This document shows, one piece after another, positions 17,842 through 26,010 of a DNA stretch of 64,000 nt. The stretch is from Gracilinema caldarium (GTDB lineage: Bacteria > Spirochaetota > Spirochaetia > Treponematales > Breznakiellaceae), in NCBI RefSeq assembly GCF_029265695.1, contig NZ_JAJUHW010000006.1, forward strand, positions 1 to 64,000, written 5' to 3'. The position numbers and the translations under genes are program-made. The notes beneath the pieces were generated by a model. The model did not search any database. It was not told the DNA's origin and saw only the letters and a program-made list of their open reading frames with translations. Position 1 is the stretch's first letter. Each line of letters opens with the position of its first letter.

Positions 17842-17874
17842 GCTCTTTCAAAACTCTTTGAGTTTTGAAAGAAC
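17842..17874. repeat. Hairpin repeat, copy 1 of the CTTTCAA family
   Basis: GCTCTTTCAAAACTC (17842-17856), loop TTT, then GAGTTTTGAAAGAAC (17860-17874): a 15-bp stem with one mismatch. The same element recurs at 18878-18909, 19059-19090 and 62157-62189. It lies between convergent genes here. Confidence 0.75.
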
Positions 17875-17936: not shown

Positions 17937-18554
17937 CTAATCTTCAGGCCTTTCAGTTATCCTTTCAGATTGGGCATATTGTTTATATTCTGTTTCAGCT
18001 GGACTTTCTATAAACAATGGTACCAAGCCGCCACAAACGAGCACCGTTCCTGCTAAAGGGCTGCCCCATAGAAAGTTTCCTACACCGACACCGGTTAATA
18101 TGCCGGCTGCTAAGAGCCGTCTCATCCGACACGATGCAGCCAAATCTTCGATAGTCTTATCAAGATATTTGTATCGTTCAAATTCACTTTCCGGCTTATA
18201 CGCTTCTGCAGTCTTTACTTTTTGCTCCTGATATGAAGGAATAAGAAAAATAGGTATTGATAAACCAACTAATACGCCGCCACCAGCCATGAGCCCAATA
18301 CCAAGCATACGGGCCTCATCAGGATTGGAAGAAGGGCTTAATGCAACAAAAGCCCCAGCGGCCACAGAAATTGCTCCAAGGCCTGCCACAATAGATCCGG
18401 TTATGGTTCGATTACTTCGGCTTTTTATTGCGATAGTATCAAAACGCAATAAAAGGGAATTGTTTAATTCCTTATAGTCGACCGTCTCATTTTGAGCATA
18501 CACCAAGGATGAAGATACAATCAGAACCATAATAAAAGTACCTATTCGTTTCAT
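17937..18554 (-). CDS. Hypothetical exported or membrane protein
   Basis: A 205-residue protein of unrecognised family. It starts with a signal peptide (MKRIGTFIMVLIVSSSLVYA), and later has glycine-rich hydrophobic stretches at roughly residues 50-70, 80-105 and 145-180 that could be membrane helices. The ATG at 18554 is preferred because AAGGGG lies upstream on the minus strand; a longer reading to 18602 has no SD and would place residues before the signal peptide. It stands alone between the aminopeptidase gene and the parS-containing region. No function can be assigned. Confidence 0.65.
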   Translation of the reverse strand: MKRIGTFIMVLIVSSSLVYAQNETVDYKELNNSLLLRFDTIAIKSRSNRTITGSIVAGLGAISVAAGAFVALSPSSNPDEARMLGIGLMAGGGVLVGLSIPIFLIPSYQEQKVKTAEAYKPESEFERYKYLDKTIEDLAASCRMRRLLAAGILTGVGVGNFLWGSPLAGTVLVCGGLVPLFIESPAETEYKQYAQSERITERPED

Positions 18555-18613
18555 CGGTATACCCCTTATAGATAGCATAAGCTGGTATCGGTAAAATTTC
18601 AAAAGCGGCTTTA

Positions 18614-18629
18614 TGTTTCACGTGAAACA
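18614..18629. promoter_or_regulatory. parS: parS site 1
   Basis: TGTTTCACGTGAAACA is a perfect 16-bp palindrome identical to the bacterial chromosomal parS consensus bound by ParB. ParB loads here and recruits ParA and SMC for origin segregation. It is about 5.7 kb from the gyrB-dnaA junction. Confidence 0.93.
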
Positions 18630-18877
18630 GAACCAGGGAATCGAACCAATTTTAAATTTCGAGCCCAACTCTTCGAGTAAATCGGCCTAGAGATTATAAT
18701 CACAAAGGCAATTTCAAAAGTTACAGACTTATAATATTTTCTCATTTACTTTGATTTATATATGAGCTTCATTTACAGCTCTTTTTTTACAGTTATCTGC
18801 AGCAATGTTTAAATCACAGTTCTAAATAGATATAGCAAGGCTGTTTTTCTTAGCTGAGGATCTTTTAAAAGTCAGAG

Positions 18878-18909
18878 GTTCTTACAAAACTCTTGAGTTT
18901 TGTAAGAAC
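18878..18909. repeat. Hairpin repeat, copy 2 (covarying variant)
   Basis: GTTCTTACAAAACTC (18878-18892) and GAGTTTTGTAAGAAC (18895-18909) are perfectly complementary. Relative to copy 1 the arm has changed at two positions and the other arm has changed to match. Outer sequences (CTTTTAAA near 18862, TTTAAAAG near 18922) could extend the stem. Confidence 0.75.
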
Positions 18910-19025
18910 TGCCCTCGTGTATTTAAAAGACCTGGGCTACCTACTATATTTTTAAATTTATTACCGAAAGATAAAAGCATTAATTAGGTCATTTATTACT
19001 TAAATGAGCTCTTTTCAATAGGGTT

Positions 19026-19041
19026 TGTTTCACGTGAAACA
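19026..19041. promoter_or_regulatory. parS: parS site 2
   Basis: A second perfect TGTTTCACGTGAAACA palindrome, 412 bp from site 1. Confidence 0.93.
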
Positions 19042-19058
19042 GTTGTATCTCCAATAAG

Positions 19059-19090
19059 GCTCTTTCAAAATCACAGAGTATTGAAAGAGC
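19059..19090. repeat. Hairpin repeat, copy 3 of the CTTTCAA family
   Basis: GCTCTTTCAA (19059-19068) pairs with TTGAAAGAGC (19081-19090); flanking AAGG before and CCTT after can extend the stem across a small bulge. It starts 17 bp after parS site 2. Confidence 0.7.
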
Positions 19091-19222
19091 AGCCTTGGAA
19101 TCAGAGATTTAGCGCGGCGATTACGAATAGTTACTCTGCAGCAACATGTAAACAAAAGCAATCACAAAGCCAATTTCAAAACTCGCAGCGTAGAAAAAAC
19201 GTTTAAATTGGAACACTTAAAT

Positions 19223-19238
19223 TGTTTCACGTGAAACA
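19223..19238. promoter_or_regulatory. parS: parS site 3
   Basis: A third perfect TGTTTCACGTGAAACA palindrome, 197 bp from site 2. Three perfect copies within 625 bp next to gyrA strongly support a centromere-like cluster. Confidence 0.93.
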
Positions 19239-19383
19239 AAATTTTAAATCGTTACACATTGTTTTGACACATAACAATAGAACCAATTTCTTGACTTTAA
19301 GCCTTGTGCCTTTTTTAAAATTATTACCTCAAATTTTACAAATTAATGTTTAAATAATATGCTTTATAAAGGAGGACCAAAAT

Positions 19384-19749
19384 ATGAAAGCAGTATTTGA
19401 AAATATTCAAGACTATATTGCTCAGTTTCCTGCAGATATTCAAAACCGATTACAAACTATTAGAACCCTTGGTCATACAATTATTCCGAACGCTCAAGAA
19501 GCCATCAAATATAACATGCCAACCCTGATGGTGAACAATAAAAATGTTTTCCATTTTGCGGCGTTTAAGCATCATATTGGTATTTATCCACTGCCCCATA
19601 CAATAGAAGTTTTACAAAATGAAATTTCTGGATATGTTCAGGGAAAAGGCTCAATTCAATTTCCCAATGAAAAACCTTTACCTATTGAATTGATTAAAAC
19701 AATAATTACCGTCCGATTCCAGGAACTAAGTTCCAAGAATCAGACATAG
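19384..19749 (+). CDS. DUF1801 (YdhG-like) family protein
   Basis: A 121-residue small cytoplasmic protein of the DUF1801/YdhG fold, related by fold to frataxin-like proteins. Family features are the N-terminal DYIAQFPADIQNRLQTIR, the central AIKYNMPTL, FAAFKHHIGIYPLP, and the C-terminal KGSIQFPNEKPLPIELI. A strong SD (AAAGGAGG) precedes ATG 19384. It ends 12 bp from the convergent gyrA stop. Function is unknown; an iron-chaperone role has been proposed for relatives. Confidence 0.85.
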   Translation: MKAVFENIQDYIAQFPADIQNRLQTIRTLGHTIIPNAQEAIKYNMPTLMVNNKNVFHFAAFKHHIGIYPLPHTIEVLQNEISGYVQGKGSIQFPNEKPLPIELIKTIITVRFQELSSKNQT

Positions 19750-19761
19750 TAACTTTTTCCC

Positions 19762-22260
19762 TTATACTTCAGATTCGGATTCTTCCGCTTGAGACGGGGA
19801 ATCGGTCTCGCCTGCGGAAAGGTCCTGCTCATCCTTTTCGCGGGCTATACGGTCTACACCGATGACAAAGTCTGGCCGTTCTATATTAAGGATGCGAACC
19901 CCTTGTGCAGACCGGCCCATGACTGAAATTTCCTTTACCGCCACTTTAATGGACTTTCCCTGGCTCGTGATGCACATAATGGAGTCATCATCCCCGACAG
20001 AAACACAGCCAACCAGTTCGCCGGTTTTTTCGCTCACTGTATAGATCCGCTGACCACCGGTAGCCCTACCATGGGCTGAAAACTCCACATACTCTACCCG
20101 CTTCCCGTAGCCAAACTCGGAGAGGATAAGCATTTTTTCCGTATCGTCTATCCGCAACACGCCGGCAAGTTCATCATCAGAATCGAGCCTGATACCGCAT
20201 ACACCACGGGAAGACCTGCCGCTTGCACGGACCTCTTCCTCGGCGGTCCGCAGAGCCTGACCTTTTCGGGTAATCAGGACAATTTCATCATCACCCTTTG
20301 TAAGAAGAGCGCTGACCAAGCTATCCCCTTCATCAAGGTTAATCGCGATAATCCCCCGTGTCTTTGCGTTAACAAATTCATCGGTCTGTACTTTCTTAAC
20401 GACACCACGGGCGGTTCCCATAAAAATATACTGGTCCGCAGAAAAATCCTTAAAGGCAACTACAGTCGTAATATCTTCGTTAGGAGAAACCGCCAGCAGC
20501 GATTTGATATGGGCACCCCGGGAAATCCTGGATCCTTCGGGGATTTCGTGGACCTTCATCCAGTAGGCCTTACCCTTACTGGTAATATACATAATGTAGT
20601 CATGGGTCGAAGCCACAAAGAGCTGCTTTACAAAATCGTCTTCGGACAATTTTGCGCTATTCATCCCCTTTCCTCCCCGGCCCTGACTTTTGTAGGAGCT
20701 TACGGGTACACGCTTGATATACCCCAGGTTGGAAATAAGGATGACCATTTCTTCTTTTTTTATGAGGTCTTCTATATTGATGGACTCCACTTCGTCGGCC
20801 ACAATTTCCGTACGCCGCGGATCCCCATACTTTTCCGCGATAAGCTTAATTTCATCCTTAATAACTCCCCTCAGTTTTTGGGGATCGTCAAGGAGGGATT
20901 GCAGATAGGCAATGAGGGTCTTAAGCTCCTCCAGTTCCTGTTTGAGTTTCTCCACCTCTAAACTGGTGAGGCGGCCAAGGCGCATATCTACGATTGCCTG
21001 GGCTTGGACCTCAGAGAGCACAAAACGGTCCATCAAGTTCTTTTTAGCCAGATCCACATCCCGGGAAGCTTTGATAATGGCGATAACTTCATCGATATGA
21101 GCCAGGGCTATTACTAGTCCTTCCAGGATATGGGCCCGTTCCTGGGCTTTACGGAGGTCAAATTTGGTTCGCCGGGTAACCACATCAACCCGGTGTTCCA
21201 CATAATAATAAATCAGTTCCTTGAGATTGAGGCAGCGAGGACGGCCTTCGACCAGGGCAAGATTGATAACACCAAAGGAAGACTGCAGGGCCGTATGGGA
21301 AAAGAGCTGATTCAGCACAACCTTAACAATGGCACCCTTTTTTAGCTCGATGACAATACGCAGCCCGTCCCGATCCGATTCGTCTCTAATTTCAGAAATA
21401 CCGTCGATTACCTTGTCACGAACAAGCTCTGCAATCTTTACCAAAAGATTCGATTTATTAACAGCATAAGGTATTTCATTGAATATTATAGATTCTTTTC
21501 CTGTTTTCGACGTTTCTATAACAAATTTACCCCGGGTAATAATCTTACCCCGGCCGGTTTTATAGGCTTCCCGAATGCCTCGACGGCCAAAAATAATGCC
21601 CCCCGTAGGATAATCGGGTCCTTTGATATAGTGCATCAGGTCATCGACTGAGAGATCCGGATTGTCGATGAATGCGCAAATAGCATCACACACTTCTTTG
21701 AGGTTATGGGGCGGCATATTGGTCGCCATACCAACGGCAATACCGCTAGAACCATTTATGAGCAGGTTTGGAACTGCCGAGGGGAGCACCACCGGTTCCG
21801 TTAAGGATTCATCGTAATTGGGAACAAAATCGACGGTTTCTTTCTTAAGATCCGCCAGCATTTCATCGCCAATCCGGGACAGCTTTGCCTCGGTGTAACG
21901 GGATGCGGCTGGTGGATCTCCATCAATAGAACCAAAGTTACCCTGCCCTTGCACAAGCGGATAACGGAGTGAAAAATCCTGGGCCATACGCACCAGGGCA
22001 TCATAGAGTGACATATCTCCATGGGGATGGTATTTACCCATGGCGTCACCGGTTATACGGGCGCTTTTTTTCGTGGCCGCATTCGGGTGTAAGCCAAGCT
22101 CGTCCATGGCATACAGAAGCCGCCGATGTACCGGTTTAAGCCCATCGCGAACATCGGGAAGGGCGCGGCTGACAATGACCGACATGGCATAGTTAAGGTA
22201 TGCGGTCTTAATTTCATCTTCTATTGCAACTGGTATTATTTTTCCGCCCGATTCAGCCAT
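19762..22260 (-). CDS. gyrA: DNA gyrase subunit A
   Basis: An 832-residue subunit that cuts and rejoins DNA in gyrase. The N-terminal winged-helix domain contains the active-site tyrosine in [10 protein letters not shown] (about residue 122), and the C-terminal pinwheel has the GyrA-box QGRGGKG that marks true gyrase rather than topoisomerase IV. The quinolone-determining region reads [10 protein letters not shown] at residues 78-87, with Met at position 83 where E. coli has Ser. It starts 12 bp after the gyrB stop and is surely cotranscribed with gyrB. Confidence 0.97.
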
Positions 22261-22271
22261 AGTTTCAACCT

Positions 22272-24588
<2,317 letters not shown>

Positions 24589-26010
24589 ATGGCTGTATGG
24601 GATTATGAAATTTTCTGGAAAGAAGCAATGAGCCAGATTAAAGAGGAACTGGAAGAACAGGAATTTGTCATGTGGTTTAATATCCAGTACCTCCGATCGG
24701 AAGAAAATACCATCGTCATCGGTGTACCCTCTTCTTTTTACCGCGACCAGGTAAAACTGAGATATCAATCTTTTATAGAAGGAAAATTACACGATTTATC
24801 GGGGCAGCAGATATCAATCCAATTTGAAGTGGTTCCTAAGAAACAAAATACAGCTGACACAGATACACGGTCCCAGTCTAACGGAACTACCCCTGAGCGA
24901 AGAAGCTCTTCTGAACCTTCGAGCAAAAATCAGAATCAAGCATCCCCTGTCCTTACTCCCCAACAAAAGGATCCCCATCCCCTGCTCCGACGGGATTACA
25001 CATTCGCCAATTATGTTATCGGAGACAACAATAGTTTTGCCGCTAACGCTGCTCTTGCAATCTCTAAGAATCCTGGAACAGCCTACAATCCCTTCCTTGT
25101 TTACGGCGGTGTAGGACTTGGAAAGACCCATCTCATGCAGGCTATTGGAAACTACATCTACGAACATTCCAACGCAAAAATTATCTATATTACTGCTGAA
25201 ACCTTTACTAACGAGTTTGTACAGGCCGTGCAGGCAAACAAAACTACGGCATTTAAAAATAAATACCGTTTTGTCGATGTTCTTTTGGTTGACGACATTC
25301 ACTTTTTACAGAACAAGACTGAAACACAAGAAGAGCTCTTTCATACCTTTAACGCCCTCTACGACGCTAATAAGCAAATGATTTTTACCTGCGATCGGCC
25401 TGTGTCGGAATTAAAACACCTTTCCGATCGGCTCCGTTCACGCTTTGAACGGGGTCTTACCGTAGATTTACAGCCTCCAGATTATGAAACTCGGCTTGCG
25501 ATATTAAAGAAGAAAGTAGAGGCCCGAAATGGGTCAATTCCCCAGGAAGTATTGGAATTGGTAAGTAAGAACATTACTTCCAATGTTCGTGACCTAGAAG
25601 CGGCGTTGACTAAATTGATCGCCTATACCGAACTTGTTCAAAAACCCATCACTATAGAAATTGCCCAACAGCACTTAAAAGATGTATTTGCCTCCCCAAA
25701 ACATTCAAATATGTCTATTGAGGTAATTCAGCGGGTTGTGGCCGAATATTTTTCTCTTTCCTATAACGATCTTAAAGGCAAAAAGCGAACTCAAAATATT
25801 GTTTTTCCCCGACAGCTGGCAATGTACATAGCACGGGAGATCACTGAATATTCAACAACCGAATTAGGGCTGGAATTTGGAGGCCGGGATCACACTACTG
25901 TTATGCATGCTTGTCAGAAAATAGAAGAACGAATTCGTTCCGATCCGACTCTGGAAACGGTAATTCAAAACCTGATTCGTCTTATAAAAGATTATAGAAC
26001 AAAGAACTGA
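24589..26010 (+). CDS. dnaA: Chromosomal replication initiator DnaA
   Basis: A 473-residue initiator ATPase. Domain I (about 1-85) is followed by a Ser/Gln-rich linker (about 88-128), then the AAA+ domain with Walker A GGVGLGKTH (about residue 170) and Walker B LLVDDIHFL, and finally domain IV with the DnaA-box-binding signature GGRDHTTVMHACQKI near residue 425. SD GAGGAAGG precedes ATG 24589. dnaN follows after a 198-bp gap that itself holds DnaA-box-like sequences. Confidence 0.98.
   Translation: MAVWDYEIFWKEAMSQIKEELEEQEFVMWFNIQYLRSEENTIVIGVPSSFYRDQVKLRYQSFIEGKLHDLSGQQISIQFEVVPKKQNTADTDTRSQSNGTTPERRSSSEPSSKNQNQASPVLTPQQKDPHPLLRRDYTFANYVIGDNNSFAANAALAISKNPGTAYNPFLVYGGVGLGKTHLMQAIGNYIYEHSNAKIIYITAETFTNEFVQAVQANKTTAFKNKYRFVDVLLVDDIHFLQNKTETQEELFHTFNALYDANKQMIFTCDRPVSELKHLSDRLRSRFERGLTVDLQPPDYETRLAILKKKVEARNGSIPQEVLELVSKNITSNVRDLEAALTKLIAYTELVQKPITIEIAQQHLKDVFASPKHSNMSIEVIQRVVAEYFSLSYNDLKGKKRTQNIVFPRQLAMYIAREITEYSTTELGLEFGGRDHTTVMHACQKIEERIRSDPTLETVIQNLIRLIKDYRTKN

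Follow-up and report, generated by a model that had tools for sequence, protein, structure and literature searches.

Three palindromes near the probable replication origin of a treponeme-like spirochaete very probably form its chromosomal parS cluster

Next to gyrA, a treponeme-like spirochaete carries three 16-bp palindromes that very probably constitute its chromosomal parS cluster, as part of a ParABS system. The sequence TGTTTCACGTGAAACA is the standard bacterial centromere sequence, parS. In the window, that is, the whole 64-kb stretch of DNA analysed, three copies were found with 16 of 16 bases matching, beginning at 18614, 19026 and 19223, exactly where a sequence-only reading had placed them. 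As an element, the cluster is of a known kind, a normal chromosomal parS. The sites and their surroundings are as follows; apart from DUF1801, the gene names around parS were read from sequence and gene order.

17937-18602, minus strand: gene for a small predicted exported protein, no Pfam match
18603..19383, unstranded: intergenic stretch with the parS sites, fast-evolving except for parS; no Rfam match
18614..18629, unstranded: parS site 1, TGTTTCACGTGAAACA, exact match; identical in congener G002
19026..19041, unstranded: parS site 2, TGTTTCACGTGAAACA, exact match; identical in congener G002
19223..19238, unstranded: parS site 3, TGTTTCACGTGAAACA, exact match; one substitution in congener G002
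19384-19749, plus strand: DUF1801 gene, flanking the parS stretch on the gyrA side
19762..22260, minus strand: gyrA, its 3' end being the usual neighbour of parS in the order
22272..24179, minus strand: gyrB, assigned from sequence by ORF and gene order
24180..24588, unstranded: gyrB-dnaA intergenic region, probable oriC, with two DnaA boxes (24341, 24543) and a GC-skew inflection
24589..26010, plus strand: dnaA, start at 24589

All three sites lie within, or at the edge of, the intergenic stretch 18603-19383, in which no gene-like ORF was found, followed by DUF1801, gyrA, gyrB and then the divergent dnaA, dnaN, recF and a DUF721-type gene. Since dnaA starts at 24589, it is 5.3-6.0 kb from the parS sites; both the gene-poor character of the stretch and its distance of 5-6 kb from the dnaA region, as first proposed, are thus upheld. 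The sign of the GC skew changes at 24-26 kb, from negative to positive, and two copies of the DnaA box TTATCCACA lie in the gyrB-dnaA gap. Based on this inflection and the two boxes, oriC is probably the gyrB-dnaA gap, and the palindromes show the closeness to a replication origin expected of parS. A structured RNA in the parS stretch was considered and rejected, no Rfam match having been found. Small hairpin repeats with the pattern TTTCAAAACTC-N-GAGTTTTGAAAG were seen at 17845-17871, 18878-18909 and 19050-19099, the first type having about 10 exact copies dispersed over the genome.

The palindrome is far commoner here than chance allows. From base composition, about 2e-5 exact matches to TGTTTCACGTGAAACA are expected per 64 kb and about 1e-3 per genome, so that a triple perfect match is indeed as improbable as had been supposed. 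Besides the three exact sites, the window contains no match with up to 3 mismatches; a shuffle control at this threshold gave 0.28 expected matches per window, a figure that says nothing on exact matches. In a search of the draft genome (3,040,264 bp in 88 contigs), the three sites were the sole matches with 0-1 mismatches, and the next best was a single site with 2 mismatches on contig C75.

The partner proteins are encoded in the same genome. The sequence-only reading had noted that parA and parB are missing from the window, which is correct, and had named a genome lacking parB as evidence against its interpretation; parB is present, however, the pair being located on contig C35, which is 7.1 kb long and carries parA and parB slightly overlapping, followed by a response-regulator receiver gene.

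L043 4515-5273 (contig C35): parA, 252 aa, AAA_31, motif NQKGGVGKTT
L043 5263-6153 (contig C35): parB, 296 aa, ParB_N, HTH_ParB and ParB_C domains

ParA is thus a Walker ATPase whose gene adjoins parB, and ParB combines the CTP-binding motif GERRxRA, here GERRSRA, with HTH and dimerisation domains. Over most of its length, ParB aligns to the solved Spo0J-type protein of Thermus (1vz0) and to Caulobacter ParB (6t1f). SMC is encoded on contig C28. The presence of SMC is what would be expected if the sites served mainly as an SMC loading platform and ParA-ParB played a minor part in moving the origin, as in Borrelia burgdorferi, where partitioning depends chiefly on a protein other than ParB (PMC9712426). 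In the genome studied here, however, both genes of the parA-parB pair are intact and adjoin each other, and we regard this alternative as improbable.

The specificity residues of ParB also agree with parS. Four positions discriminate ParB from its paralogue Noc (Jalal et al. 2020, PMC7383237), and the protein carries R, A, K and G there. In Caulobacter numbering, its residues are Q162, G170, K171, R173, N178, A179, K184, G201 and R204, among which the contact residues Q162, G170, K171, N178 and R204 are retained whereas S172 is replaced by N; K184 is a permissive residue reported for about 28% of ParBs (PMC7383237). R173 together with G201 is the parS type (RXXG pattern), as opposed to QKKR of Noc. 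It is therefore very improbable that the palindromes are nucleoid-occlusion sites: Noc and ParB are paralogues that bind similar palindromes, but the sequence is that of parS, the window contains no Noc site at 0-1 mismatches, and the sole full-length ParB/Noc-type protein has R and G in place of the Noc-type Q173 and R201, so that the sequence largely refutes Noc binding. The second match to ParB_N lacks an HTH domain. This match is a 129-aa protein with ParB_N only (L006 1423-1812, contig C34), whose gene adjoins a penicillin-binding-protein-like gene; it was rejected as a competing parS binder, since without HTH_ParB its domains are not those of a partition ParB.

The sites are conserved well beyond their surroundings. 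When the three parS were aligned with those of the closest congener, G002, 47 of 48 bases were identical (98%), compared with 61% identity for the intergenic stretch, so that they behave as a putative functional footprint, kept while the DNA around them diverges. In the genome search, parS with at most 1 mismatch was found in 46 of the 59 genomes, the window genome included, and in 31 of the 37 of good quality, 36 of which have ParB; the read-backwards control was nearly empty. Copies without function, arisen by chance or from repeats, are the least credible reading of all, practically negligible: small hairpin repeats do occur within the parS stretch, but exact sites are expected at 0.001 per genome, the flanks of the three share only few bases and are not copies of each other, for which repeat expansion was rejected as their origin, the sites persist in G002 where the flanks diverge, and conservation across the order has already refuted it.

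The position by gyrA is also a recurrent one. Where the two share a contig, parS usually lies within about 3.5 kb of gyrA on its 3' side. A separate named set of gyrA loci agrees: parS directly follows the gyrA 3' end in 19 of the 42 spirochaete loci that have at least 1.5 kb of downstream sequence, and in none of the 20 from non-spirochaetes. In G055, this place is taken by two TGTTCCACGTGGAACA copies, which differ from parS by a symmetric double change, and G039 has a mixed pair. Congeners G001 and G003 carry different genes in the parS interval, labelled from sequence reading as acetyltransferase-like and NlpC/P60-like ORFs and as a PIN-domain toxin-antitoxin-like pair, and yet two parS are retained. 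Gene content between the aminopeptidase-like gene and gyrA (L076 3640-4325, L073 715-3697) is swapped among the congeners while parS stays, and this interval reads as a small variable spot near the origin. At two loci, L083 and L084, no parS was seen beside gyrA, and three genomes with good ParB (G014, G020, G035) have no recognisable parS within 1 mismatch, which speaks against the parS reading but may be due to divergence or assembly gaps; a diverged parS by gyrA was rejected for G014 and G035, no common palindrome having been found.

The claim that the cluster lies beside gyrA holds for the window, in which 524 bp separate the gyrA stop from the last parS, but reflects a preference of the lineage and is not the functional point, the distance being 98-171 kb in two closed relatives. 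The distance from parS to parB varies as well: 86 kb in the closed congener G001, about 37-42 kb in G018, G049 and G058, and about 270-790 kb in the closed genomes G031, G037, G040 and G045. In G037 (L086, C1), parS occurs at 2505759 and 2507624, with a DUF721-type gene as its neighbour; dnaA is 276 kb away and gyrA 98 kb. The sampled GC skew of this genome changes sign around 2.48-2.53 Mb, with parS at 2.506 Mb, a hint that parS and the functional origin keep together and that this origin may perhaps be elsewhere than dnaA; the hint is no more than a lead, since the sampling was coarse and single-stretch values fluctuate. For G040, the sampled skew was too noisy for origin placement. A tentative generalization, which we consider rather doubtful, is that in this spirochaete order parS is uncoupled from parAB, that selection keeps parS near the origin, and that parS may be a better guide to the functional origin than dnaA is. 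The last part is suggested by at least one closed relative with parS near the GC-skew switch and dnaA and gyrA far away, and the selection by congeners in which parS flanks a fast-changing interval by gyrA.

The proposed ParABS-based segregation of the origin is supported by parA-parB on C35, the parS-type residues of ParB, origin proximity and conservation; three parS at 5-6 kb from the origin in a genome encoding ParA, ParB and SMC argue for an ordinary chromosome-segregation site. The analysis itself shows where the sites are, that they are unique in the genome, close to the origin and conserved, that ParA, ParB and SMC are encoded, and which specificity residues ParB has; how ParB would bind and spread, SMC be loaded and the origin be moved is taken from established ParABS biology, in which ParB is loaded at parS, spreads as a CTP-clamp and recruits SMC, and ParA moves the origin (reviewed in PMC7333895). 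By analogy, the three parS would be loading sites for ParB dimers, which are produced from a parAB operon located elsewhere on the chromosome; the dimers would then close into CTP-bound clamps and slide along the DNA to either side, gyrA among it. The clamps would recruit SMC, while the ParA ATPase would move ParB and thereby separate the newly copied origins. Given the secondary role of ParB in Borrelia burgdorferi, the ParA-ParB step could be rewired here too.

The cluster leaves the understanding of ParABS unchanged; with its fixed position on the gyrA side, parS can in practice serve to mark the origin where spirochaete genomes are fragmented. Like Bacillus subtilis Spo0J/parS and Caulobacter ParB/parS, the system has standard TGTTTCACGTGAAACA sites clustered near oriC, a ParA, an SMC, and a ParB of three domains that shares the key residues of DNA contact. 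Unlike in those two, parS lies beside gyrA and not in the parAB region, parAB being 86 kb off in the closed congener and, in the present genome, on a different contig. Borrelia burgdorferi, also a spirochaete, likewise has an oriC-proximal parS and ParA/ParB homologues (PMC9712426), but its parA and parB are close to parS whereas here parAB is remote. In sum, a conventional centromere of the ParABS/SMC kind has very probably been kept near the origin in a treponeme lineage that is free-living or uncultured, in contrast to the rewired arrangement reported for Borrelia.
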